Shown here one piece after another: positions 12,065-25,897 of a stretch of 64,000 nucleotides of DNA. The first letter of the stretch is position 1; every line of letters begins with the position of its first letter. The stretch is from Sphingosinicella sp. BN140058. GTDB lineage: Bacteria > Pseudomonadota > Alphaproteobacteria > Sphingomonadales > Sphingomonadaceae. The notes beneath the pieces were generated by a model, which was not told the origin of the DNA, made no database searches, and saw only the letters and a list, made by a program, of their open reading frames with translations. Location of the stretch: assembly GCF_004135585.1 (NCBI RefSeq), contig NZ_CP035501.1, positions 2,923,501 through 2,987,500 on the forward strand. The letters are read 5' to 3'. The position numbers were made by a program, and so were the translations under genes.

Positions 12065-15000
12065 ATGGCCGTGACTTTTACCGTAACCCGCAGCACCACC
12101 CTGTTCGCCGATCAGGACGAGATCGGGGTGGTGGATCCCGGCGATACCCTCCGCACCTGGATCGTCGTCACCAACATGTCGGGCCAGCCGGCGGATCTTG
12201 GCACCGGAGTCACCATCGCCGACTCGTTCGGCGGCTCCAGCCTGATCGCCGGAACGCTCAACGTCTCGCCGATCGCGTTCAACGATTCGTTCACCGCCGT
12301 CGGCAATACCGTGCTGCGCGTCGGCGGCGCTGCGAACATCGGCACCGGCGCGTCTTCGGTGGTGGCTGGAAATTTGCTCGCCAACGACATCGGCAGCGGG
12401 CCGTCTGCGATCGCGGGCGACGATGCACCTGGGTTCTCGATCGTCGCCGTCAGCAACGGCGTCAGCGCCGGCGGCGGCACGTTCAACATCTTCAGCGACG
12501 GCTCGTTCAACTACGTGAACCAGGCCGGTGATACCGGAACCGACAGCTTCACCTACACGATCCGGGACAATGGGCTCGACGGCATCGCCAACAATGCCGA
12601 CGATCTCACCAGCACCGCCACCGTCACGATCACGCTGTCGGGCGAAGTGTGGTACGTCGACACGGCCGCCGCGGGCGGCGGCACGGGCACGTCGGACAAC
12701 CCCTTCAACACGCTCGCTGCCGTGGGCGGCGCCGGCGATCCCGACGGCAATGGTGACATCATCTACCTGAAGGGCAGCGCCAACGGCACGATCGCGCTCG
12801 AGACCGATCAGCAACTTGTCGGCACCGGCGCGGCGCTCACTGTCGAGGGCTTCAATCTCGCCGCGGCGAGCAGCAGATCGACGATCACGGCATCCGGCGG
12901 CACCGTCGTCACGCTCGCAACGGGGAACAGCGTGCTCGGCGTGAACGTCGTCACCGGGGACGCCTCCACCGTCGGAATCCAGGACGGCGGGGGCACCGTC
13001 GGCGCGTTGAAGATCGATGCCATCACCGTCACCGGTCTCGGCAAGGCGATCGACATCGACCAGGGCGGCGCCCTGGATGTCGACATCAACTTGCTAAGCG
13101 CGAGCGGCACCAGCGAAGGCGTGCATCTCGCGGGTACGGCAGCGAACCTGCTGACGGGTTCGTTTCACGCCAGCAACGGCGTTATCCAGACTGCCACCAA
13201 TCAGGGCTTCCTGATCGGGGCGGCGGGCGGCGGCACTGCCAGTTCCGGGGGCAGCGCCAACATATATTATGGCGGATCGATCTCCAGCAACGGCCTCGCG
13301 CTCGTCGAAATCCAGGACCGCACCGGCGGCACCGTCACCTTCACCGGCGTGTTCACCGACGGTTCCGGACCGGGGATCATCGCCGACGGCAATGCCGGCA
13401 CGATCAGTTTCGACAACCGAATCTTCATCGAAAGCGGCGCCAGCACTGCCGTGTCGCTCACCAACAACAGCGGCGCCATTGCCTTCAGCGGGGCCGGGGC
13501 TGGAATGGACCTGACGACCACCACCGGCACAGGGTTCAACGCGGTGAACAGCGGCACCGTGGTCATTCAAGGTTCGGGCAACACGATCACTTCGAGCGGC
13601 GGTACCGCCCTCAATGTTGCGTCCACCACGATCGGCACCGGCGGCCTTACCTTCGAGAGCATCAGCGCCAACGGCGGCGCAAAGGGTGTCATCCTCAACA
13701 ACACCGGCAGCACGGCCGGGCTGACCATCACCGGTACCGGCACCACCGACGGATCGGGCGGTACGATTCAGAATACCGATGTGCGCGGCATCGAGCTCAT
13801 CGATACGGCGCAGGTCAGCATCAAGAATCTCAATCTGACCAATGCCAACGACAGCGCCGACACGGCCGGCAACGATCTTACCGTCACCAATGCCAACGGC
13901 GCAGTCTACATGCGCAACGTCAGTACGGCCGTGTTCGACAACATCAACGTTACCGGGACGATCCTCGACAATGGCATAACCGGCACCAACGTCAGCAATT
14001 TCCAGCTGAACAACAGCCTGATCAGCGGCGCCGGCAACGGCGCCCACGAGAGCGGAATCGAGTTCAACAATCTGTCCGGCACATCGTCGCTGACCAACAG
14101 CGAAATTGCGCTCTCCGAGACCAACAGCCTCGACATCGTCAATACCGACGTCAACCTCAACCTGACGCTCAACAACGTCATCTTCCGCGACACGCAATCC
14201 GGCGCGATCGGCGAAGGCGGGCTTCAGTTCCGCAGCTTCAGCAATGCGGCGGGCGCGCCAGTCACCAACATCGACATTCTCGACAGCGATTTCCTGCGTC
14301 TGCGCACGCAGGCGATTCAGGTGATCGGCGAAGACGATTCCACGGTCAGCGTCGACATCGTCAACAACGTCATCGACAGCGGCACCGGGATCGGCACCGG
14401 CATCGACATCAACGGCAACGACACTGCCAACGTCGCCTTCAACATCAACAACAATCCGACGATCCGATCGAGCGGCGGCGCCGCCGTCAACATCACGTCG
14501 TTCCTGAACGCAACCGTGATGGGGCGGATCAACAACAATCCCGACATCGAAGTCTACAGCCAGACGCCCGCCGGCACCGGCGCGTCCGGCAGCGGCATCC
14601 GCGTGCTCGCCCAGGAAAGCTCCCACACCATCGTCTCGGCGTCCGGCAACACCCTCACCCAGGATGTGGGCAACAACAGCTCCGCAATCGACGCGATCGC
14701 GCGCGAGGGCAGCGCCCGGCTCGACATTACGCTGATCGGCAACGTGATCGATTCGACCGATCCGAACACCCTCGCCGACATCAACCTTCAGAGCGGTTCC
14801 TCGTCCGGCACCAACATCGAGACGAACCAGATCTATGCGAACATTGCCAACAACAATCTGACTGCCACAGCCGCTCCGAACCTGCTGCGGCTGCGCGTGT
14901 CGGAACTCAACGACGGCCACAATCCGCGAATCTTTCTGCAGGGATTCGTCGAAGGCGGAGCCGGGATCGAGGACGACGCCGTGGCGACGTGGAACGCGAA

Positions 15001-18000
15001 CGGCAACACGCCCGGTGCGTCCACCTCGAATATCGCGGTCAGCCTGACGGGCACCGCCACCGGGCCCAGCGCGGGCACCGCCCAGACCCCGACCAACCCG
15101 CTGCCGATCTTCGCGGCGGCAGCCCCGCCGGCGTCCGAAGCCTCGGAAGACGTCGGGCAGGCGCCCCCCGCGCAGGGAAGCGGCACTCCATCGGTCGACG
15201 ATTCGCCCGAGGTCCCATTGTCCGCCGGGCCCGTGGTGGTCGATGACGGAGTCCTCGCCGCGGCCGAGCTCGCGCTGATCGTCGACGCTGCGATCGCGCG
15301 GTGGGCCGCAGTCGGCGCGACCGCCGTCCAGCTGGCGGCAATGCGCACCGTCGACGTCTCGATCGCGAACCTCGCCGGCTTGCAACTGGCGGAGAGCGGC
15401 GCCGGCGAGATCCGGATCGACGACAATGGTGCGGGCTTCAGCTGGTTCATCGATGCGAGTCCCGGCGACGATGCGGAATATCAAGCGCTTGCCGGCCGTC
15501 TTGCGGCGGCTGACGCGCACGGTGCCGCCGGAACCCGGATCGATCTCCTCACCGTCGTCATGCACGAACTCGGGCACCAGATCGGGCTCCTCGACGAATA
15601 TGCATCGACGGATCGTGCCGACCTGATGTTCGGCACGATCAACCCAGGCGAGCGGCGACTGCCCGGCACCGATGCGGTGCAGGCGGCGAGCGGCAATGCC
15701 GTGGCCGGCGCGTTCGCTTTGTCGCCGATCAACATCGGCAACCTGCCCGCCGGTCAGAGCGTCACCATCGAGTTCCGCCACATCGTCAATGCTGCGGGCG
15801 AGGACGGCCTGGTCGCCGGCGTCTCCGGCGCGACAATCGTCGATTCCGATCAGACCGCACCCCAGAGCAGCGCAACCAACGTCACCGCCGTCGATGGGCT
15901 GACGCTCGGGGGCCAGATCTTCATCGATCTCGACAAGGACGGCGTTCTCGAGGCCGGCGAGAACGGGCCAAGCGGCGTGACACTCACGCTCTATGCCGAC
16001 AGCAACAATGACGGCGTCTTCAGCGCCGGGGACCTTTATGTCGGCTATAACGAACTCGGCGGCGGCGCCGGCTATCAGCAGGGCATCGACACGCCGGCGC
16101 CGGGCGGCACCGGAACGGCGCTGACCACTGCCACTCTCGCAAACGGATTTTACAGTTTCGCCAACCTGGCGCCGGGCGATTATATCGTCGTCGTCGACTC
16201 CGCGAATTTCGCCCCCGGCGGAGCGCTGAACGCACGCGTCGCGAGTGCGAGCGCCAATGATCCGGACGACAATGTCGACAACGACAATAATGGCCAATCA
16301 CTCTCCGGCCTCGTTGCGACGCGCGCGATCACGCTCGCCTACGGGACCGAAACATCGACCGGGCCGACCGGTCCGGCGCTCGACACCAACACCACGCTCG
16401 ACATCGGTTTCGAGATTCCGAACCAGCCGCCGGTGATCGGCAACCTTCAAGGGGACAGCGCCAACTTCATCGAGGGCGGCACGACCATCGGCTTCGACCC
16501 TTCGCTCGACGCCACCGTCACCGATGGGGACAGCCCCGATTTCGCCGGCGGCTCGCTTACCGTCACCATCATCGATCCGCTCGACGACGATGCCATCGTC
16601 ATCAGGACCGGCGGCGCCGTCAGCGCGACGATGGATGCCGGCAATGCGTCGGGCACGGTGTCGGTAGGCGGCGTCCAGATCGCCACCTGGGCGCTCGCCG
16701 GCACCGGCCTGTCGATGGTCTTCTCGTTCGATGCCGATGCGACACCGGCCGCCGTTCAGGATCTTGTTCGTGCGCTCGGCTATCGCAACACCAACGCAAT
16801 CGATCCAGGCACCGCGACCCGCAACGTCAGCTTCACCCTGATCGACGGCGACGGCCGGGCCAATAACGGCGACGACGATACGACCGTGACCACCACCGTC
16901 ACCCTCACCGCGGTCAACGATGCGCCGAGCGGTCAGGACGACGGTGCCACGATCGTCGAAGATTCGACCCACGTCTTCACCGCCGCGGATTTCAACTTCA
17001 GCGATGTCGACGGCAATGCCTTTGCCGGCGTGGTGTTCACCACGCTGCCGGCAAATGGCGTCGTCAAGATCAACGGGGTCGCGATCAGCGCCGGCGGGTT
17101 CGCGTCGGCAGCCGATATCTCGAGCGGCCTCGTCACCTACACGCCGAATGCCGATCAGGTTGGAATTGCCCTCGACACGTTCACCTTCCGGGTGCGGGAC
17201 AATGGCGGCACCGCCAATGGCGGCGCCGATACGGATCAGACGCCGAACACGTTCACGTTCGATGTCACGCCGCTCAACGATGCGCCGGCGATCTCCAATC
17301 TGAACGGCGACACCTCAACCTATACGGAGAATGGTGCGCCGCTGCTGCTCGATGTCGGCAGCAATGCTGTGGTCACCGACGTCGACAGCTTCAATTTTGA
17401 ACTGGGAACACTGACCGTCACCATCAATGCGGTTGGCGACGACGCGCTCTCGCTCGCGCCCGGAACCGTGGCCGTCGACAACGGTACCCTGGCGGTTTCG
17501 GTTGCCGGGGTGGAGATCGGCACCCTCTTTCCGGTCGCCTCGCCACCCAGTTTCGGTTTTTTCATCGCCCTCAATGCCAATGCCACGCCCGCACGCGTCC
17601 AGGAGGTCATTCGCGCCGTCCAATATTCCAATACCGGCGACGATCCGGCGGCGGGTACGCGCACCGTCACCTATACCTTGTCGGACGGCGACGGCAGCGG
17701 TCCCGGAGAGACTAGCACGATCATTCTTCAGAACTCGTTCGCGGTTCTCGCCGTCAACGATGCACCGGTGGGCATCGACAAGACGATCGAGGTCAGCGAG
17801 GATGATCCTTACGCCTTCTTCCTCACCGACTTCGGCTTCAGCGACGCCGAAGGGGACGACTGGGCCGAGGTCGTCATCACCACCTTGCCGGGCAATGGCG
17901 CGTTGCTGCTGAACGGCGTCGCGGTCGCGGCGGGGCAGGCGGTTTCGCGGGCGGACATCAATGCGGGCCTGCTCGTCTTCGTGCCGGATCCCGATGAAAC

Positions 18001-20713
18001 CGGCGACAATTATGCCAGCTTCACCTTCCAGGTCCGGGACGACGGCGGCACCGCCAATGGCGGTGTGGATCTCGACGCCACGCCGAACACGATCACGATC
18101 GACGTCGCTCCCGACAATTTGCCGCCGGCACTCGATCTCAACGGCGCGGCCGCGGGCATCGACAATAGCGGCAGCTACGGCGAGGGCGCCGGTGCCTCAG
18201 TTCTCGCCCCGGCGGCGCTGGTCACCGATGCGGACGACACCGACATCGAAAGCGCAACGGTGACGATCACCGGCGGTCTCATCGCAGGACAGGATCGGCT
18301 CACCGTCAACGGCGCCACCACCGGGACCGTCAACGGCATCACCATCGCCTACAACGCGACGACGGGCGTCCTGACCCTGACCGGAATCGCGACGCTTGCC
18401 GACTATCAGGCGTTGCTCCGCCAAGTTGGCTTCAACTCGACCAGCGAGGCGCCGGGCACCTCGCGCACCCTCAGCTGGACGGTGAATGACGGCGTGGATG
18501 ACAGCCCCGCCGCGACGACGACGATCGCGGTGACGTCGATCAACGATCTGCCCAGCGGGACGAGCAGCACGATTGTCATCAACGAGGATGCCGCACGCAC
18601 GCTCGGTGCGGCCGATTTCGGCTTCAGCGACGTCGACGGCAGCTTCGCCAGCGTGACGATCGGTTCCGTCAGCGGCGGCAAGATCTTCTTCGATGCGGAT
18701 GGAGCCGGACCCGCGCTGGCAACGGAAGTGACGTTGCCGCGGGTGTTCACGTCCGCCGACCTCGCCGGCGGATGGGTCAGCTTCGTGGCGACCGCCAACG
18801 CCAACGGTAGCGGGCTCGGCAGCATCAGCTTCGCCGTCACCGACAATGAGGGCGGCAGCGATGCCAGCCCGAACACGCTGACCATCGACGTAACCGCCGT
18901 CAACGACGCCCCGTCTCTCAGTGCCGCCGCCCCGGTGTCGGCGACGGAGCAGATTGCGATCGCCGTGCTTTCGGGCGTGACCGTCGCCGACGTCGACCTC
19001 GATCAGAAGAATGGCGGGCTCGGCGACTATGCCGGCGCGGTGTTCAGCGTGAACCGCAATTCGGCGGCCAATGCGCAGGACGTTTTCAGCCTCGTTGCCG
19101 GATCCGGCTTCACCATCGACGGCAACCAGCTCAAGGCGGGCGGGCTGGTCTTCGGCACCTTCTCGATCAGTGCGACCGGTTTCATCCAGATCAGCTTCAC
19201 CAGCAGTCAGACGGCGGCGACCTCGGCGCTGATCGACCAGGTGATCCAGTCCATACGCTACCTCAACTCCAGCGACACGCCGCCCGCATCGATCGATCTC
19301 GCCTATGGCTTTACCGACGGTTCGCCGGGTCAGGGCCAGGGCAGCGGCGCGACCAATCTCGACGTCAAGCTGGTCAGCGTCGGCATCACCGCCGTCAACG
19401 ATGCGCCGATCAACACCTTGCTGCCGACCCAGGCCGGCGTCGAGGATTCGAACCTCGTCTTCTCGGTCGCCAACGCCAATGCGATCAGCGTTGCGGATGC
19501 CGAAGCGACCAGTCTTCAGGTCACCCTGAGCGTTTCGCACGGTCTGTTGACCCTGGCAGGCGCGGCAGGCCTCAGCTTCACCACAGGTGACGGCACCGCC
19601 GACGCGACGATGACGTTCAGCGGCACCGCATCCGCGATCAACGCGGCGCTCGATGGCCTCGTCTATCGCGGCGCACTCAATTATCACGGCGTCGATGCCC
19701 TGACGGTCACCACCAGCGATCTCGGCGTCGCCGGTACCGGCGGTGCCAAGACCGACCAGGACATCGTCACGATCAACCTCGTCACCGACGGGTTCGTCGA
19801 TGGCGACAGCGGCGACAACAGCGTCTCGGGCAGCGGCGGCCCCGAGCAGTTCCTGTTCCAGCATGGCGGCAACGATCATGGCGACGGCGGCGGCGGCAAC
19901 GACCGCTTCTATTTCGGCGACCAGTGGAATTCCGGCGACAGCGTCGACGGCGGCACCGGCGAGGACTCGCTTCAGCTCGCCGGCGACTACACCTACACGT
20001 TCGGCGAGACCCAGATGGTCTCGATCGAACGGCTTCGGCTCAACACCGGCAACGGCGCCGATTTCGATTATTATCTGACCATGGCCAACGGCAACGTCGC
20101 TGCCGGGCAGCAATTGCTGGTGGATGCGCAGGGGCTCGTCGCCGGCGAGACCCTGACCTTCGTCGGCATCGCGGAGACCAACGGCTTCTACAAGATCCTG
20201 AGCGGCGCGGGCGACGACATCCTCGCCGGCGGAACGCAGAACGACATCATCTCCGGAGGCGCCGGCGACGATACGATCTACGGCCTGACCGGCAACGACA
20301 CGATCACCGGCGGTCTTGGCCACGACATCCTGAACGGCGGATCCGGCAGCGACGTGTTCGTCTATGGATCGGCCGCGGAATCGACCAGCACCGGCTTCGA
20401 CACGATCGAGAAGTTCAGCACCTATGTCGACCGGATCGACCTGCCGTTCGCAGTGACCGGCTGGAGCGGCACGGTAACGAGCGGCGGGCTCAGCGCCGCA
20501 AGCTTCGACAGCGATCTGGCGGCCGCGGTCAATGCCGCGCTCAACGCCCATTCCGCCGTCCTCTTCATCGCCAGCAGCGGCAGCTTCGCCGGCCGCAGCT
20601 TCGCGGTGATCGACGGCAATGGCGACGGATCCTACCAGGCCGGACAAGATTACGTTATCGAGTTCGCCCAGCCCGTCGCCCCGCTCGACGCGCACGCGGC
20701 CTATTTCATCTAG
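12065..20713 (+). CDS. giant RTX-type secreted protein with beta-helix, metzincin-like motif, SdrD-B-like and cadherin-like repeats (2882 aa)
   Basis: The N-terminus (residues 1-195) is a surface-protein domain with DSFTYTIRDNG. About 195-980 is an Asn/Thr/Gly-rich right-handed parallel beta-helix, beginning EVWYVDTAAAGGGTGTSDNP. A proline-rich linker (about 1005-1060) leads to a segment with HELGHQIGLLDEY at residues 1167-1179, a zinc motif of the HExxHxxGxxD type, followed by DLMF with a possible Met-turn methionine at 1188. About 1280-1455 resembles an SdrD-B/Cna-B repeat (GQIFIDLDKDGVLEAGENG). Cadherin-like domains with VNDAP linkers follow to about 2570, then the RTX nonapeptides and the C-terminal module ending AAYFI, almost identical to the first giant protein. 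It is probably exported by a type I system. It could be a surface adhesin with a protease domain; activity is unproven. Confidence 0.92.
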   Translation: MAVTFTVTRSTTLFADQDEIGVVDPGDTLRTWIVVTNMSGQPADLGTGVTIADSFGGSSLIAGTLNVSPIAFNDSFTAVGNTVLRVGGAANIGTGASSVVAGNLLANDIGSGPSAIAGDDAPGFSIVAVSNGVSAGGGTFNIFSDGSFNYVNQAGDTGTDSFTYTIRDNGLDGIANNADDLTSTATVTITLSGEVWYVDTAAAGGGTGTSDNPFNTLAAVGGAGDPDGNGDIIYLKGSANGTIALETDQQLVGTGAALTVEGFNLAAASSRSTITASGGTVVTLATGNSVLGVNVVTGDASTVGIQDGGGTVGALKIDAITVTGLGKAIDIDQGGALDVDINLLSASGTSEGVHLAGTAANLLTGSFHASNGVIQTATNQGFLIGAAGGGTASSGGSANIYYGGSISSNGLALVEIQDRTGGTVTFTGVFTDGSGPGIIADGNAGTISFDNRIFIESGASTAVSLTNNSGAIAFSGAGAGMDLTTTTGTGFNAVNSGTVVIQGSGNTITSSGGTALNVASTTIGTGGLTFESISANGGAKGVILNNTGSTAGLTITGTGTTDGSGGTIQNTDVRGIELIDTAQVSIKNLNLTNANDSADTAGNDLTVTNANGAVYMRNVSTAVFDNINVTGTILDNGITGTNVSNFQLNNSLISGAGNGAHESGIEFNNLSGTSSLTNSEIALSETNSLDIVNTDVNLNLTLNNVIFRDTQSGAIGEGGLQFRSFSNAAGAPVTNIDILDSDFLRLRTQAIQVIGEDDSTVSVDIVNNVIDSGTGIGTGIDINGNDTANVAFNINNNPTIRSSGGAAVNITSFLNATVMGRINNNPDIEVYSQTPAGTGASGSGIRVLAQESSHTIVSASGNTLTQDVGNNSSAIDAIAREGSARLDITLIGNVIDSTDPNTLADINLQSGSSSGTNIETNQIYANIANNNLTATAAPNLLRLRVSELNDGHNPRIFLQGFVEGGAGIEDDAVATWNANGNTPGASTSNIAVSLTGTATGPSAGTAQTPTNPLPIFAAAAPPASEASEDVGQAPPAQGSGTPSVDDSPEVPLSAGPVVVDDGVLAAAELALIVDAAIARWAAVGATAVQLAAMRTVDVSIANLAGLQLAESGAGEIRIDDNGAGFSWFIDASPGDDAEYQALAGRLAAADAHGAAGTRIDLLTVVMHELGHQIGLLDEYASTDRADLMFGTINPGERRLPGTDAVQAASGNAVAGAFALSPINIGNLPAGQSVTIEFRHIVNAAGEDGLVAGVSGATIVDSDQTAPQSSATNVTAVDGLTLGGQIFIDLDKDGVLEAGENGPSGVTLTLYADSNNDGVFSAGDLYVGYNELGGGAGYQQGIDTPAPGGTGTALTTATLANGFYSFANLAPGDYIVVVDSANFAPGGALNARVASASANDPDDNVDNDNNGQSLSGLVATRAITLAYGTETSTGPTGPALDTNTTLDIGFEIPNQPPVIGNLQGDSANFIEGGTTIGFDPSLDATVTDGDSPDFAGGSLTVTIIDPLDDDAIVIRTGGAVSATMDAGNASGTVSVGGVQIATWALAGTGLSMVFSFDADATPAAVQDLVRALGYRNTNAIDPGTATRNVSFTLIDGDGRANNGDDDTTVTTTVTLTAVNDAPSGQDDGATIVEDSTHVFTAADFNFSDVDGNAFAGVVFTTLPANGVVKINGVAISAGGFASAADISSGLVTYTPNADQVGIALDTFTFRVRDNGGTANGGADTDQTPNTFTFDVTPLNDAPAISNLNGDTSTYTENGAPLLLDVGSNAVVTDVDSFNFELGTLTVTINAVGDDALSLAPGTVAVDNGTLAVSVAGVEIGTLFPVASPPSFGFFIALNANATPARVQEVIRAVQYSNTGDDPAAGTRTVTYTLSDGDGSGPGETSTIILQNSFAVLAVNDAPVGIDKTIEVSEDDPYAFFLTDFGFSDAEGDDWAEVVITTLPGNGALLLNGVAVAAGQAVSRADINAGLLVFVPDPDETGDNYASFTFQVRDDGGTANGGVDLDATPNTITIDVAPDNLPPALDLNGAAAGIDNSGSYGEGAGASVLAPAALVTDADDTDIESATVTITGGLIAGQDRLTVNGATTGTVNGITIAYNATTGVLTLTGIATLADYQALLRQVGFNSTSEAPGTSRTLSWTVNDGVDDSPAATTTIAVTSINDLPSGTSSTIVINEDAARTLGAADFGFSDVDGSFASVTIGSVSGGKIFFDADGAGPALATEVTLPRVFTSADLAGGWVSFVATANANGSGLGSISFAVTDNEGGSDASPNTLTIDVTAVNDAPSLSAAAPVSATEQIAIAVLSGVTVADVDLDQKNGGLGDYAGAVFSVNRNSAANAQDVFSLVAGSGFTIDGNQLKAGGLVFGTFSISATGFIQISFTSSQTAATSALIDQVIQSIRYLNSSDTPPASIDLAYGFTDGSPGQGQGSGATNLDVKLVSVGITAVNDAPINTLLPTQAGVEDSNLVFSVANANAISVADAEATSLQVTLSVSHGLLTLAGAAGLSFTTGDGTADATMTFSGTASAINAALDGLVYRGALNYHGVDALTVTTSDLGVAGTGGAKTDQDIVTINLVTDGFVDGDSGDNSVSGSGGPEQFLFQHGGNDHGDGGGGNDRFYFGDQWNSGDSVDGGTGEDSLQLAGDYTYTFGETQMVSIERLRLNTGNGADFDYYLTMANGNVAAGQQLLVDAQGLVAGETLTFVGIAETNGFYKILSGAGDDILAGGTQNDIISGGAGDDTIYGLTGNDTITGGLGHDILNGGSGSDVFVYGSAAESTSTGFDTIEKFSTYVDRIDLPFAVTGWSGTVTSGGLSAASFDSDLAAAVNAALNAHSAVLFIASSGSFAGRSFAVIDGNGDGSYQAGQDYVIEFAQPVAPLDAHAAYFI
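19847..20713 (+). repeat. near-identical direct repeat, copy B (RTX C-terminal module)
   Basis: This is the partner of 10781-11647, in the same orientation at a constant 9066-base offset. Replacement differences include NSGGG versus NTGNG, TGTG versus TSTG, and TAS versus IAS. The pair can support homologous recombination that would delete or amplify the intervening 9 kb. Confidence 0.92.
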
Positions 20714-21089: not shown

Positions 21090-22652
21090 ATGGAGTCGGG
21101 GCAGGGCATTGGCACGCGCTACCGCGCGTTCCTGAGCTATAACCACAAGGATCGGCAGCAGGCGCGGTGGCTTCATCGTCGCCTCGAAAGCTATCGGATG
21201 CCGCGGCGACTCGCCGGTCGGGACGGTGCGCGCGGTATCGTTCCTGCACGACTTTCGCCGATCTTCCGCGATCGCGAGGAATTGCCGGCGGCCGGCGATC
21301 TTTCCACCGAGGTGCGTGCCGCGCTGGCCGCGTCCGAGAGCCTGATCGTCGTCTGCTCGCCCAACGCGGCCGCCTCGCCGTGGGTGGCGAAGGAAGTGCG
21401 CACCTTCCGGGAACTCCACCCGGAGCGCCCGATCTTCGCCGCCATCCTGGAGGGAGAGCCGGCGCAATGCTTCCCCGCCGGGCTCTCCACGGCCGAGATC
21501 GAGCCGTTGGCGGCAGACCTTCGCCCCGAGGGTGACGGCCGCCGTCTCGGCACCCTGAAGCTCGTCGCCGGGATCGCCGGCGTCGGCCTCGACGCCCTTG
21601 TCCAGCGCGACGCTCAACGCCGCATCCGCCGCGTGACCGCTGTCACGCTCGGCGCCCTGCTGATGATGCTAGTCACGATGGGATTGGCGATCTTCGCTTT
21701 CACTCAACGCGTGGAGGCCGAGCGGCAGCGGGCGGAGGCGGAAGGATTGGTGGAATTCATGCTGACCGATTTGCGCGAGCGGCTGAAGGGTGTGGGGCGG
21801 CTGGATGTGCTGACGGCTACGAACAAGCGCGCTCTTGCGCTGTACGAGGGGAAACCGCTCCGTTCACTTAGTCCGGATTCGCTTGAGCGGCGTGCACGAA
21901 TTCTGCTTGCCATGGGAGAGGATGCGGAGAAGCTGGGCGACCGATCTGATGCGTTGTACCGGTTCCACGAAGCGCATCGCGTTACCGGCGAGCAATTGAA
22001 ACGAGATCCTCAAAATCCCGAGCGACAGATGGTGCATGCACAAAGTGCCTACTGGCTGGGCTACATTGCGTATCTCGATAGGAACTGGGACGTGGCCGCA
22101 ACTTATTGGGGCGAGTACCGGCGCCTTGCCCAGCAGCTCGCTGCCCGCGATCAGGATAATGCGGATTGGTTGCGGGAAGAGGCCTTTTCTGAGGGGAATT
22201 GGTGCACCTTGGAATTAGCGGTCAAGGCTCGACCGGATGCCGCCTTGAGGAGCTGTCAGCGCGCTTTGGTAATCATGGAAAAAGTGCAGCGCCTGCGTCC
22301 GCAGGAGCTTCGAACTATCCGAGATGTCGCCAACAGACAGGCTTGGCTGGCCGATGCGTGGCTGGCGTCCGGCAACCGAGGCAGGGCTCAAGCGGCGCGA
22401 GAGGCACAGCTGCGCTTACTTGAGCCATATGCGTCCAGGTTGCGTCTCGATGCAGACCTCCAGGACCAATGGATGCGCGCGCTAATGGTCATGGCTGAGG
22501 CGCTTGCGGGTGAGGACCGGGCGAAAAGTCGTGCGTACAGGCATCAAGCCGCGAAAGTCGCGCGTGACCTTATGCGCCGCGATCCTAGCAATGAAGCTTG
22601 GAGGAGCTGGAAGCGTCGGATTGAAGGCACAGCAATCAAAGATGGAGATTGA
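21090..22652 (+). CDS. TIR domain-transmembrane-TPR-like protein (520 aa)
   Basis: The ATG at 21090 follows GAGGGGG; a further in-frame start at 21045 is unlikely. Residues about 10-150 form a TIR domain: YRAFLSYNHKD (strand A), FRDREELPAAGDL (BB-loop region) and ESLIVVCSPNAAASPWVAKE. Glutamate 102 in WVAKE aligns with the catalytic glutamate of NAD-hydrolysing TIR domains (WVHKE in SARM1). A single membrane segment lies at about 183-205, then a charged coiled segment with GLVEFMLTDLRERLKGVGRL. A helical TPR-like C-terminal half contains the Trp/Tyr-rich AYWLGYIAYLDRNWDVAATY. The family is common in Sphingomonadales and its function is not established. It would be inner-membrane anchored with TIR in the cytoplasm. 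The next gene starts two bases after its stop, so they form an operon. Confidence 0.88.
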   Translation: MESGQGIGTRYRAFLSYNHKDRQQARWLHRRLESYRMPRRLAGRDGARGIVPARLSPIFRDREELPAAGDLSTEVRAALAASESLIVVCSPNAAASPWVAKEVRTFRELHPERPIFAAILEGEPAQCFPAGLSTAEIEPLAADLRPEGDGRRLGTLKLVAGIAGVGLDALVQRDAQRRIRRVTAVTLGALLMMLVTMGLAIFAFTQRVEAERQRAEAEGLVEFMLTDLRERLKGVGRLDVLTATNKRALALYEGKPLRSLSPDSLERRARILLAMGEDAEKLGDRSDALYRFHEAHRVTGEQLKRDPQNPERQMVHAQSAYWLGYIAYLDRNWDVAATYWGEYRRLAQQLAARDQDNADWLREEAFSEGNWCTLELAVKARPDAALRSCQRALVIMEKVQRLRPQELRTIRDVANRQAWLADAWLASGNRGRAQAAREAQLRLLEPYASRLRLDADLQDQWMRALMVMAEALAGEDRAKSRAYRHQAAKVARDLMRRDPSNEAWRSWKRRIEGTAIKDGD

Positions 22653-22654
22653 AC

Positions 22655-23332
22655 ATGGAATCAGCTCTTCTCGAAGTGGTGGCGGCTCGCGTGGGTAGTG
22701 TTCAGGAGATGGGCAAACTAGACACCACGGACGTACTACCAAAAGACGTTATAGTTTGGAGCCTTGACTTTAAAGTAACCGGAAGCGGAGAGATCGACAT
22801 ATTCTATGACAGAGCTGCTAGATATCGGCTAAGGGGACCGGAAACAATTGAAGATTACACAAGGAGAATCGTAGACGGTCATGATCCGACCTCTCAAGAC
22901 TGGAAAACACCTGGAGAGGTGGTTCCTGGCAAATCGCCGCTTTCAATACACCACACGGAATATGCCTACCTTGTGTTTGTCCTGAACAACAAAAACTGGC
23001 AGTTTATGGATAACTGCTTTCCATTCTCAGTCGAAAACGGCAAATCAGGTTATTATATCGAAGCAACTGGCGTTTGGAGGGATAGACTCACTGGTGCCAT
23101 GAAATACGAATACAAAGTAGAGTCTGGTGCAAAATGTCGTGTTGCTTATTTTATCTCAAAAGCGCAGGAGGAATTCGACAACTCCAAGGAGCCGGGTAAT
23201 GCGTTTGTAACCCGATTCAACTTCTACCTTGATCTAATTGTCAACAGGAAGGGTGTGCCTCGATTATTGCCTACCATCGTTGATCCAGACGTTGGGCATC
23301 CTGGCGGTTACGACCCGAATCCCGTGCCTTGA
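22655..23332 (+). CDS. unrecognised 225-aa protein, AT-rich orphan in the TIR operon
   Basis: The start is the ATG at 22655, two bases after the TIR gene stop, with GGAG nine bases upstream; translational coupling is likely. I recognise no domain. There is no signal peptide or membrane segment. The protein is rich in aromatic and charged residues (EYAYLVFVLNNKNWQFMDNC, GYYIEATGVWRD) and probably a beta-rich soluble fold. It ends with a proline/glycine tail (IVDPDVGHPGGYDPNPVP). The DNA is much poorer in GC than all neighbours: the 60 bases from 22741 contain 25 G+C. Codon choice (AAA, ATA, AGA, AAC mixtures) is equally foreign. This points to recent acquisition. It may be a sensor, ligand-processing or partner protein for the TIR protein; that is only inference from position. 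Confidence 0.8.
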   Translation: MESALLEVVAARVGSVQEMGKLDTTDVLPKDVIVWSLDFKVTGSGEIDIFYDRAARYRLRGPETIEDYTRRIVDGHDPTSQDWKTPGEVVPGKSPLSIHHTEYAYLVFVLNNKNWQFMDNCFPFSVENGKSGYYIEATGVWRDRLTGAMKYEYKVESGAKCRVAYFISKAQEEFDNSKEPGNAFVTRFNFYLDLIVNRKGVPRLLPTIVDPDVGHPGGYDPNPVP

Positions 23333-23483
23333 GATTGGCATCGCTCGCTCCAGATGCCATTGTGAGACGCGGTCGCGCAAGGAAGGGCGTATTCAACTAA
23401 CGTACATGTGCCGGACGCTGGTCTAGTTGGCTATGATCCGCCAAGACCTTCGACGAGGCCACTAACGGTCTGGATGGGACTCA

Positions 23484-25103
23484 ATGGCGAACGATGACCT
23501 GAACTCCCTCCAAGGGATCGGTGCGCTCGCACGGGCCGGGGCTTTGGAGGAGGCTTGGTCCCGGTTCAGCGCTGCCGGATTCGACCGTGACACTCGGCCG
23601 GCGGCACTCGCTCTGCAAGGACGTTTGCTCAAGGATAAAGCCTTGCGAGCGACCGGAGCGGCCAGAGTGAAGCTCTTTCGCGAGGCGGCCAAGATGTACG
23701 CGCACGCGGCTCAAAACGGCAGTACAACCTATCCGCTGATCAACGCGGCGACCCTTTCCCTTCTGAGTGACGATCTGGATGGCGCTGCGTCGTTTGCCGG
23801 TGAGATCCTGCGGCGGCTGTCAGAGGAGCCGGACGAGTTCGAGACGCCCTATTATCACGCTGCGACACGGGCCGAGGCATTGCTCCTTCTCCGCCGCGAG
23901 CATGAAGCCGCCGGTGCGCTCCGCATAGCGATAGCTCTCGCGCCAAATGCGTGGGAGGACCATGCTTCCACCATTCGCCAGTTTGAGCTGATCCTCACTA
24001 AAAGAGGCAGTGAAGCGGATTGGCTCGATGATCTTCGGCCGCCGCGTTCCGTACACTTTGGCGGGCACATGTCGTTTCGATCGGATGTCTCTAGGCACGG
24101 GCTTCTCGGCGAAACGGTCACCAGAGCGCTGGAGGTGGAGAATGTCGGCTTCGCATTTGGTGCGCTCGCAGCGGGAGCGGATATTATCATTGCCGAGGCA
24201 CTGCTCGAGCGAGGCGGGGAGCTGCACCTGATCGTGCCGGGCGGTCCCACGGCGTTCGCTGCGCGCTCGGTGGATCCATTCGGCCCCGAGTGGCGGCGGC
24301 GGTACGATGCGGTGCTCGAACGCGCAGAAGCGGTAAGGCTTATTCGCCCGCTCGCTATGGCGCCCGATGCGGAGACGATTGCGGTTGCGGACGAAGTCGC
24401 CATGGGTGCGGCGCTGATGAACGCTCGACGACTGGAGAGTTCGGCCGTGCAGTTGCTGGTCGTCGATAATGGGGCCGCACCGGAACCGAGCGCGACCTAC
24501 CGTGCGCAGGTGCGCTGGGCTCAGGGTGGCTGGCGCCAATGGCTCATCCCAGCACCACGTGAGGCGGTTGCGCCCACTCCCGCGCATGACACTGCTAGTT
24601 CTTCGTCAAGACGAGCAATGGCTGTCCTCTCAATCCGCTTCGCTGAGCAAGTGGAAGGCGGAGAGCAAGGGAGATTGGCCACCTTGCGCACGTTGATCGA
24701 CCGATTGTCCCACTCGGCGCACCTAGCCTATTTCTCCGAAGACGCCGTGATGCTCGCCTTTGAGAATTTGCTTTCCGCGGCCGACGTCGGATTAAGGCTG
24801 GCAAGCGCGGACTACCGGATCGGAGGGGACTATCTCGCTACAACCGCGTTCACCGACCCCTTTTCCGGAGCGCAGCGCTTGCCCGGCAGTGCCACCGCGG
24901 CCGCGTCTGCCGCGGCGGCATCGACACCGCCGGGTTCGGTCTGCGTCACCGAGGACTTCGCCGCCGCTCTTGCGGTCGCTGGGGATGCCGGACCGCACAG
25001 CGAATATGTCGGCGAGCTCGACCCGCCCGATGAGGGGCCGCCGATCGCCCTCTACGCTCTCAAGCCTAGAATATCATCTCCTCCAGACGGCCCGGTGCGC
25101 TGA
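23484..25103 (+). CDS. TPR-S (TRAFs-binding-like) / SLOG-like Rossmann / degenerate nucleotide-cyclase protein (539 aa)
   Basis: Three parts are visible. Residues about 1-185 are helical repeats resembling the TPR-S/TRAFs-binding domain (YPLINAATLSLLSDDLDGA, APNAWEDHASTIRQ). Residues about 188-335 look like a SLOG-type Rossmann fold: VHFGGHMSF, then GFAFGALAAGADIIIAEALL and GGELHLIVPGG. Residues about 375-528 align by pattern with class III nucleotide cyclase domains (TPPGSVCVTEDFAAAL, EYVGELDPPDEG), but the metal-binding aspartates and the Asn/Arg of the VNxAAR motif are absent. The cyclase part is therefore probably a non-catalytic relic or binding domain. Proteins of this build are described in nucleotide-centred conflict-system surveys, often near TIR genes. 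It follows the orphan gene by 151 bases and overlaps the convergent Crp-type gene by 38 bases. Confidence 0.75.
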   Translation: MANDDLNSLQGIGALARAGALEEAWSRFSAAGFDRDTRPAALALQGRLLKDKALRATGAARVKLFREAAKMYAHAAQNGSTTYPLINAATLSLLSDDLDGAASFAGEILRRLSEEPDEFETPYYHAATRAEALLLLRREHEAAGALRIAIALAPNAWEDHASTIRQFELILTKRGSEADWLDDLRPPRSVHFGGHMSFRSDVSRHGLLGETVTRALEVENVGFAFGALAAGADIIIAEALLERGGELHLIVPGGPTAFAARSVDPFGPEWRRRYDAVLERAEAVRLIRPLAMAPDAETIAVADEVAMGAALMNARRLESSAVQLLVVDNGAAPEPSATYRAQVRWAQGGWRQWLIPAPREAVAPTPAHDTASSSSRRAMAVLSIRFAEQVEGGEQGRLATLRTLIDRLSHSAHLAYFSEDAVMLAFENLLSAADVGLRLASADYRIGGDYLATTAFTDPFSGAQRLPGSATAAASAAAASTPPGSVCVTEDFAAALAVAGDAGPHSEYVGELDPPDEGPPIALYALKPRISSPPDGPVR

Positions 25104-25758
25104 CGATCAGCGCGTCGGCGTCGCGGCGGATGATGCCGCGACGCTGGAGGCCGTTGATCGCCCGGGACGCGGTCTCGCGCGTCGTCGAGACGCGAAGCGC
25201 GAGTTCGGCGATAACGGGGGAAGGTCGGATCGCGAGATCGGGTGCCTCGCGTGCCTGGCGCAGCAGTTCCGCATAGACCCGCCCCATAGCGGAGACGGCG
25301 GCGCGTTCGTACATCCGCTCCGTCGCTTTTCGCAGCCGCTTGAGGAGCATGCGGGAGAGGGCGAGGCTGATGCAGCCGTGCTGCTGGGCGAGCATGGCGA
25401 ATTCGGCGGCTTCGAGCACCAAAGCGCGCGCATCCTCCAGCGCCCGTACGTCCGCCTCCTGCCGCACCGGCTCGAGCTCTCCGAGCGCGCCGAACAGGTC
25501 GCCGGGATGATATTCGTGGAGCAAAACCATCTGACCGTCGGCGCTGTAGAGCAGGGCTTGCGCACGGCCGAGCAGAAGCAGGAAGGCGGTGCTCAGCCAA
25601 TCGCCCTGGCGCAGGATCGTCGCATGGCCGGCATAAGCGCGGATCCGGCCCCGCCGCATCACCTGGGCGGCGACGTCGGCGGAGCAGGCGAAGATGCGCG
25701 CGATCAGATCGTGCGTGGCCTGGGCCTGCGGATCGCCGGTGCTGGAGCCCCCTTCCAT
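25066..25758 (-). CDS. Crp/Fnr-family transcriptional regulator
   Basis: From the ATG at 25758 the product is about 230 residues; a TTG at 25776 is an alternative and neither has a strong ribosome-binding site. The N-terminal two thirds form a cyclic-nucleotide-binding-like beta roll (ATILRQGDWLSTAFLLLLGR, EYHPGDLFGALGELEP). A long dimerisation helix (LALSRMLLKRLRKATERMYE) follows, then a Crp-type winged helix with recognition segment VSTTRETASRAINGLQRRGI. There is no cysteine cluster of the Fnr type. It is convergent with and overlaps the TPR-S/SLOG gene by 38 bases. Whether it controls that operon cannot be told from sequence. Confidence 0.9.
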   Translation of the reverse strand: MEGGSSTGDPQAQATHDLIARIFACSADVAAQVMRRGRIRAYAGHATILRQGDWLSTAFLLLLGRAQALLYSADGQMVLLHEYHPGDLFGALGELEPVRQEADVRALEDARALVLEAAEFAMLAQQHGCISLALSRMLLKRLRKATERMYERAAVSAMGRVYAELLRQAREAPDLAIRPSPVIAELALRVSTTRETASRAINGLQRRGIIRRDADALIVSAPGRLEEMIF

Positions 25759-25820
25759 GAGAGGATCAGACCGCAATTAACGAGGATTCGCAACGGCGTG
25801 CGCGCGTTGGGACAAGAAAA

Positions 25821-25897
25821 TGGTCGGGGAGAGAGGATTCGAACCTCCGGCCCCTGCCTCCCGAAGACAGTGCTCTACCAGGCTGAGCTACTCCCCG
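25821..25897 (-). tRNA. tRNA-Pro (anticodon CGG)
   Basis: On the minus strand the cloverleaf folds fully. The acceptor CGGGGAG pairs with CTCCCCG and the D-stem is GCTC/GAGC. The anticodon stem is CTGTC/GGCAG with loop TTCGGGA, giving anticodon CGG. The T-arm is GGAGG-TTCGAAT-CCTCT, the discriminator is A, and the CCA end is encoded. Length is 77 bases. Confidence 0.96.

Follow-up and report, generated by a model that had tools for sequence, protein, structure and literature searches.

The defense system Pycsar pairs an active cyclase with a cNMP-binding effector, and TPR-S domains reportedly occur in conflict systems together with pNTSase1 and TIR proteins, as is said to have been described by Burroughs and Aravind in 2020. 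For Thoeris, which is made up of the TIR protein ThsB and the SLOG protein ThsA, a published account states that the SLOG domain binds cyclic ADP-ribose (cADPR) isomers made by the TIR protein (PMC10022894). Here, we describe an operon of three genes, referred to as T, B, and C, located on the forward strand (positions 21090 to 25103) of a 64,000-nucleotide stretch of the Sphingosinicella sp. BN140058 genome, referred to as the window. Among some close relatives, the body of the B protein, at times together with the C-terminal TPR half of T, is swapped for a very different version, while the TIR domain and C are alike. The fold of B, its conserved tail, the exchange of this cassette, and a Crp/Fnr-family partner are contributed by the present analysis.

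Relatives of the operon were collected by a scan with an alignment of C, which gave at least 593 matching stretches, 156 of them encoding relatives; the best 80 were kept as named loci. Loci of this and the other sets are given here with L numbers. The T protein (21090 to 22652, forward strand; 520 amino acids) has a TIR domain (residues 14 to 129; 21129 to 21476, forward strand) that matches TIR_2 with 47.8 bits and ThsB_TIR with 31.4 bits, both exceeding the profile cutoffs (21.2 bits for ThsB_TIR). Its E102 corresponds to the catalytic glutamate expected of TIR NADases and is kept in all 87 aligned relatives, and a hydrophobic segment at approximately residues 184 to 205 separates the TIR domain from a TPR part. 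Judged from its sequence, T is a TIR protein that is anchored in the membrane and carries the catalytic glutamate and a TPR part, as an earlier, sequence-only reading of this DNA had proposed. Block conservation in T is 0.53 to 0.78 over residues 1 to 320 and falls to 0.29 to 0.49 in the C-terminal part (residues 322 to 520; 22053 to 22649, forward strand), which block conservation, DNA homology, and part identities mark as replaced or strongly diverged among some close relatives. The B gene (22655 to 23332, forward strand) encodes a predicted beta-sandwich protein of 225 amino acids that resembles pNTSase1 and ends in a conserved tail (residues 210 to 225; 23282 to 23329, forward strand), which starts with D-P-D-V-G-H-P-G-G. 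The Asp-Pro of this tail is present in all 47 distinct, aligned B proteins recovered with a B profile, position +5 is Asn in 35 of the 47 and His in the window, and the predicted local distance difference test score drops across the tail from 93 to 58 and 46. The tail offers a simple tag for members, B of the window among them, that escape sequence searches.

The exchange is visible in pairwise identities. Among 3003 pairs from 78 operons, the 751 pairs in which T is 45 to 50% identical have a mean identity of 40% in C and 18% in B. Close pairs were defined by identities of at least 0.70 in the N-terminal parts of both T and C, which left 39 pairs, with some genomes present twice; B is at 0.58 to 0.94 in 30 of them, and in the other nine it is at 0.07 to 0.45 with the TIR half at 0.73 to 0.90 and the N-terminal part of C at 0.76 to 0.82. 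These nine pairs represent four groups of loci, or seven pairs when a genome present twice counts once. Six pairs were compared at the DNA level, five of which had been selected because their B identity was low. Between L160 and L161, the match runs in T to approximately residue 327 (87.7%), breaks, and restarts just past the start of C (80%), a pattern also seen for L072 and L160, and between L104 and L141, T matches except for its last 25 codons before homology restarts, again just past the C start. For L065 and L067, T matches fully, the first two thirds of B are unmatched, and homology restarts approximately 58 codons before the end of B; for L090 and L100, the match stops in T at approximately residue 245 and, apart from one small patch, restarts in the last 18 codons of B, that is, in the tail. 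DNA homology is unbroken between L101 and L106, which have a B identity of 0.82. In the comparison of the window with Sphingomonas parva (L086), T is matched to approximately residue 248, nothing matches in B or over residues 1 to 110 of C, and further pieces match through C, most of the Crp/Fnr gene, and the tRNA-Pro side. Because DNA homology flanks the unmatched B, this locus is syntenic in the two genomes with a differing middle, for which divergence and replacement are indistinguishable at such a distance.

Within one B type, B is conserved about as well as its neighbors, and the ratio of nonsynonymous to synonymous substitutions (dN/dS) ranges from 0.06 to 0.27 in the 23 pairs, out of 26, for which it could be computed, with many dS values near saturation and the ratios accordingly rough. 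On these low values, B variability is not due to decay. Several dS values for B exceed those for T and C (for L101 and L106, 1.80 versus 0.37 and 0.18, respectively), a difference that is given no weight here because codon bias could contribute to it. Fast point mutation was considered as the cause of B divergence and rejected in favor of exchange, given the low dN/dS where it is computable and the 30 close pairs in which B is well kept. The guanine-plus-cytosine (GC) content of the window operon is 69.7% in the first 600 bases of T, 59.6% in the rest of T, 47% in B, and 64% in C, and the GC content of B is lower than that of T and C in all 52 loci compared. The bias is weaker at third codon positions (B below T in 39 and below C in 41 of 53 loci, window included), so that part of the low GC content reflects amino acid makeup. 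The description of B as foreign looking therefore stands as far as composition goes, and the idea of a one-off foreign insertion or an orphan falls, since low GC content is common to the family and B is exchanged.

B had also been regarded as unrecognized. Its match to pNTSase1 (PF20301), at 21.3 bits, does not reach the gathering score of 25 and is confined to residues 183 to 217; an iterated profile built from it reaches members of that family, and PF20301 matches with an E value of 0.1 or better are present in 38 of the 48 B proteins aligned. At the level of sequence, B and the family that Pfam calls pNTSase1, short for "Predicted novel nucleotide synthetase," are divergent relatives. Were the name literal, B would make the ligand sensed by C, and the 38 family matches can be cited for this; we regard it as very improbable, and the present results call the synthetase name into question. 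A literature search gave no paper on pNTSase among the matches listed, and the papers it found on TPR-S, SO1698, and DUF1888 were unrelated.

The nearest solved folds to the modeled B beta-sandwich are the peptidase SO1698, of the self-cleaving type, and PixA. B resembles DP-EP (PF08985, SO1698) and perhaps PixA/AidA (PF12306) in a predicted beta-sandwich and an Asp-Pro near the C terminus, and with DP-EP proteins, whose common end is D-P-x-x-x-N, it shares the frequent Asn at +5. SO1698 is said to have been published as cleaving itself at Asp-Pro, and chain lengths in the PDB of 119 residues for the wild type versus 128 for the D37A, S114A, D116A, and P117A variants fit a cut after D116. B might likewise cut its Asp-Pro bond, with the released or exposed end as the signal: SO1698 is the best structural match, and in the model its residue 116 would fall within one residue of D210-P211 if the alignment ends are ungapped. 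We consider self-cleavage decidedly improbable. When matched by eye, the position of D37 holds Asp in no more than 17 of the 47 B proteins, with Ser in the window, and nothing in B corresponds to S114. Moreover, no sequence-profile homology of B to DP-EP or PixA/AidA was detected (hhalign probability of 2% for SO1698/DP-EP; at an E value of 0.1, the 48 B proteins match four families, none of them DP-EP). A survey for PixA in relatives of one genome gave 1 hit in 59 and nothing new.

The C protein (23484 to 25103, forward strand; 539 amino acids) joins the three domains that the sequence-only reading had assigned to it. A TPR-S match (PF20308; residues 12 to 92; 23517 to 23759, forward strand) passes with 33.9 bits against a gathering score of 27.6, and the N terminus is covered by TPR helices. 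Residues 186 to 529 are covered by a YpsA-like SLOG domain with a Rossmann-like fold (residues 186 to 358; 24039 to 24557, forward strand) and a class III cyclase fold (residues 374 to 529; 24603 to 25070, forward strand). Active class III cyclases have a metal-binding Asp pair and Asn/Arg residues. In an alignment of C to Ma1120 read by eye, the G-D and Asn/Arg residues are absent, and within residues 381 to 420 the sole column to reach 60% is 382 (Leu), so that the cyclase domain is apparently dead. This sets the operon apart from Pycsar, to which a class III cyclase fold in one operon with a TIR/membrane protein and an adjoining protein with a cNMP-binding fold would otherwise liken it; a cNMP-binding domain was not found in T at an E value of 1.

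The operon recurs. T and B lie beside C in 57 of the 80 named loci as scored by an automatic rule; T alone is found in 6, B alone in 7, and neither in 10. The three genes are thus found together elsewhere, and with the SLOG fold of C this passes both refutation tests that the sequence-only reading had set itself. Four "B only" loci (L088, L105, L108, and L119) owe their score to spurious open reading frames (ORFs) not recovered by the B profile, two (L151 and L164) start at a contig end, and in L114, T lies further upstream. Hosts with both genes include Sphingomonas, Novosphingobium, Caulobacter, Brevundimonas, Phenylobacterium, Asticcacaulis, a Kordiimonadaceae bacterium, and Maricaulis. In a family-level sample of 199 genomes, TPR-S is found in 74 and pNTSase1 in 14, window included; in all but one of the 14, the pNTSase1 match is directly upstream of the TPR-S match on the same strand. 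Such neighboring TPR-S and pNTSase1 genes with a TIR protein nearby resemble the reported TPR-S conflict systems mentioned at the outset. Presence is patchy, as only the window's own genome among four of its genus in the sample has a pNTSase1 match. Among 40 TPR-S places taken with their flanks, in which the middle gene was picked by eye, T, a small tail-bearing gene, and C are found in 25 in addition to the window (with T and B approximately 760 bases apart in L083); none of the other 15 has a recognizable B, and 13 of them have a longer C (583 to 657 amino acids). In L048, L052, and L053, longer TPR-S proteins lie directly behind a gene of 913 to 915 amino acids with a SecA-like, CPCGSGRKYKHCHG-type end. 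In a class-level sample of 289 genomes, PF20301 is found in 3 and a C relative in 19, and the operon is known from two (that of the window and G014); neither T nor B was found at the C loci examined in 12 of the other 17, although for one of these, L186, the sequence does not extend upstream of C.

These C relatives bear on a Thoeris-like reading, in which T would synthesize a cADPR-type messenger at the membrane, the SLOG domain of C would receive it, and B or the Crp/Fnr protein would respond. The likeness lies in a TIR domain above the ThsB_TIR cutoff with an invariant glutamate, a separate SLOG protein, and the precedent of a SLOG domain that, according to PMC10022894, binds TIR-made cADPR isomers. 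We nevertheless consider this reading somewhat unlikely, since no neighboring TIR gene was found for these 12 class-level C relatives and B has no candidate effector activity. Furthermore, the effector domains of ThsA have no counterpart, neither SIR2 nor macro being among the Pfam matches of C at an E value of 1, and T differs from ThsB in its membrane anchor and TPR part, as does the operon in its third gene.

With confidence just short of even, we favor the reading that this is a TIR-based conflict or stress-signaling operon in which the recognition cassette can be exchanged, the docking tail is constant, and C and Crp form a control unit that senses a ligand. What stays constant across the operons is the TIR glutamate, the TPR-S and SLOG parts of C, and, in most B types, the Asp-Pro tail of B. 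The variable beta-sandwich of B would recognize an infection- or stress-specific trigger, and the constant Asp-Pro tail would relay the event by docking on a partner that is itself constant, in the simplest case the TPR-S repeats of C. This could free the membrane TIR of T for NAD+ cleavage or for production of a cyclic ADP-ribose-type signal. C and the neighboring Crp would form the gate: the SLOG pocket, possibly together with the dead cyclase pocket, would set the threshold by reading a ligand derived from a nucleotide, while Crp would adjust transcription. Nucleotide sensing by C and the action of T on NAD+, both already part of the sequence-only reading, are inferred. More specifically, and as a possibility that we find somewhat doubtful, the operon could be an immune system of the bacterial TIR type that owes its specificity to a recombination-exchanged cassette of beta-sandwich sensors. 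Most of these would carry the Asp-Pro tail, which would plug into a TPR-S/SLOG gate connected to Crp/Fnr, or be cleaved off and delivered to it. Infection recognition by bacterial TIR proteins is known for few systems, and what is seemingly a natural swap experiment, with a constant effector and gate, many recognition bodies, and one tail, would make specificity testable by cassette exchange.

Several points weigh against this reading. That the tail docks is something we infer. One class of middle genes, counted as B by position, has a GIHPP end in place of the Asp-Pro and is not reached by the B profile, and four of the nine low-B pairs belong to it. The C-terminal part of T can change without B, and B without that part (in L062 and L067 it is at 0.79 and B at 0.34), and since they are not always exchanged together, a fixed partnership of B and T is not shown. 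C and Crp are also found where T and B are absent, so the pair seems to predate its link with them and to have had a separate, earlier role. Nor do the flanking genes that were examined resemble a defense island: 91 proteins from 48 loci (out of 140 from 50 loci, the remainder being mostly the gene directly after C, which is usually Crp) have Pfam names that, for the 25 of 94 families shown, are mostly metabolic, transport, or signaling. Ten PADLOC families were matched among the 91 proteins, one protein each and probably about five different proteins, a raw count with no random-gene comparison. C was found in one plasmid record and not in phage records or viral contigs. The context thus does not demonstrate defense; the case for conflict comes from patchiness and exchange, and a defense role is plausible. 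The earlier suggestion of a nucleotide-signaling or defense system is partly supported: its three genes, its domains, and its recurrence hold, and its view of B does not.

Among the middle genes, that of L151 (positions 2 to 796) encodes a protein of the tail class without Asp-Pro, with the HGGIHP motif twice at its end. In L133 (5238 to 5891) and L137 (5247 to 5894; from Kordiimonas), a middle gene of approximately 215 amino acids has no recognizable D-P tail and perhaps represents another cassette class.

The sequence-only reading overlooked the conserved Crp/Fnr-family regulator, which in the window (25066 to 25776, reverse strand; cNMP_binding, 49.9 bits; HTH_Crp_2, 32.7 bits) is convergent with C and overlaps its 3' end by 38 bases. 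A convergent relative lies behind C in 69 of the 80 loci (45 of 53 with a profile-recovered B and 24 of 27 others) and is the most constant partner. A cAMP pocket motif is not evident in an alignment of the 69 relatives. At three class-level loci (L178, L181, and L182), a Crp relative is present, and a frame ending at the C start resembles a Crp relative and is possibly the same ORF. A perfect CGTGA-N6-TCACG dyad, a possible Crp-type operator, occurs upstream of T in 8 of 46 regions (L098, L104, L110, L129, L136, L146, L148, and L161) versus 0.8% of 1225 control stretches, the pattern having been picked from the same regions. FNR-type sites have no exact match upstream of T in the 46 regions; near-matches in the window number 6 versus 3.15 expected, and 8 of 100 shuffles reach 6. 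It could be argued from the constancy of Crp, the mostly metabolic flanks, the dyad, and the DNA synteny with S. parva, which extends past the operon, that the locus serves endogenous stress or envelope signaling instead of defense, with C and Crp as a metabolic or redox regulator and T and B as its controlled output. We regard this as unlikely, as patchy presence and middle-gene exchange would be unusual in housekeeping regulation and the perfect dyad is absent from 38 of the 46 regions, including the window.

A tRNA-Pro gene (cgg; 25821 to 25897, reverse strand) lies beside the Crp/Fnr gene in the window. A tRNA integration site was considered and rejected, as of the 60 loci scanned, just those of the window and S. 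parva have a tRNA-Pro nearby. Just upstream of the operon (12065 to 20713, forward strand), a gene encodes a giant protein of 2882 amino acids, the first 645 residues of which match Big_9 just under the cutoff.
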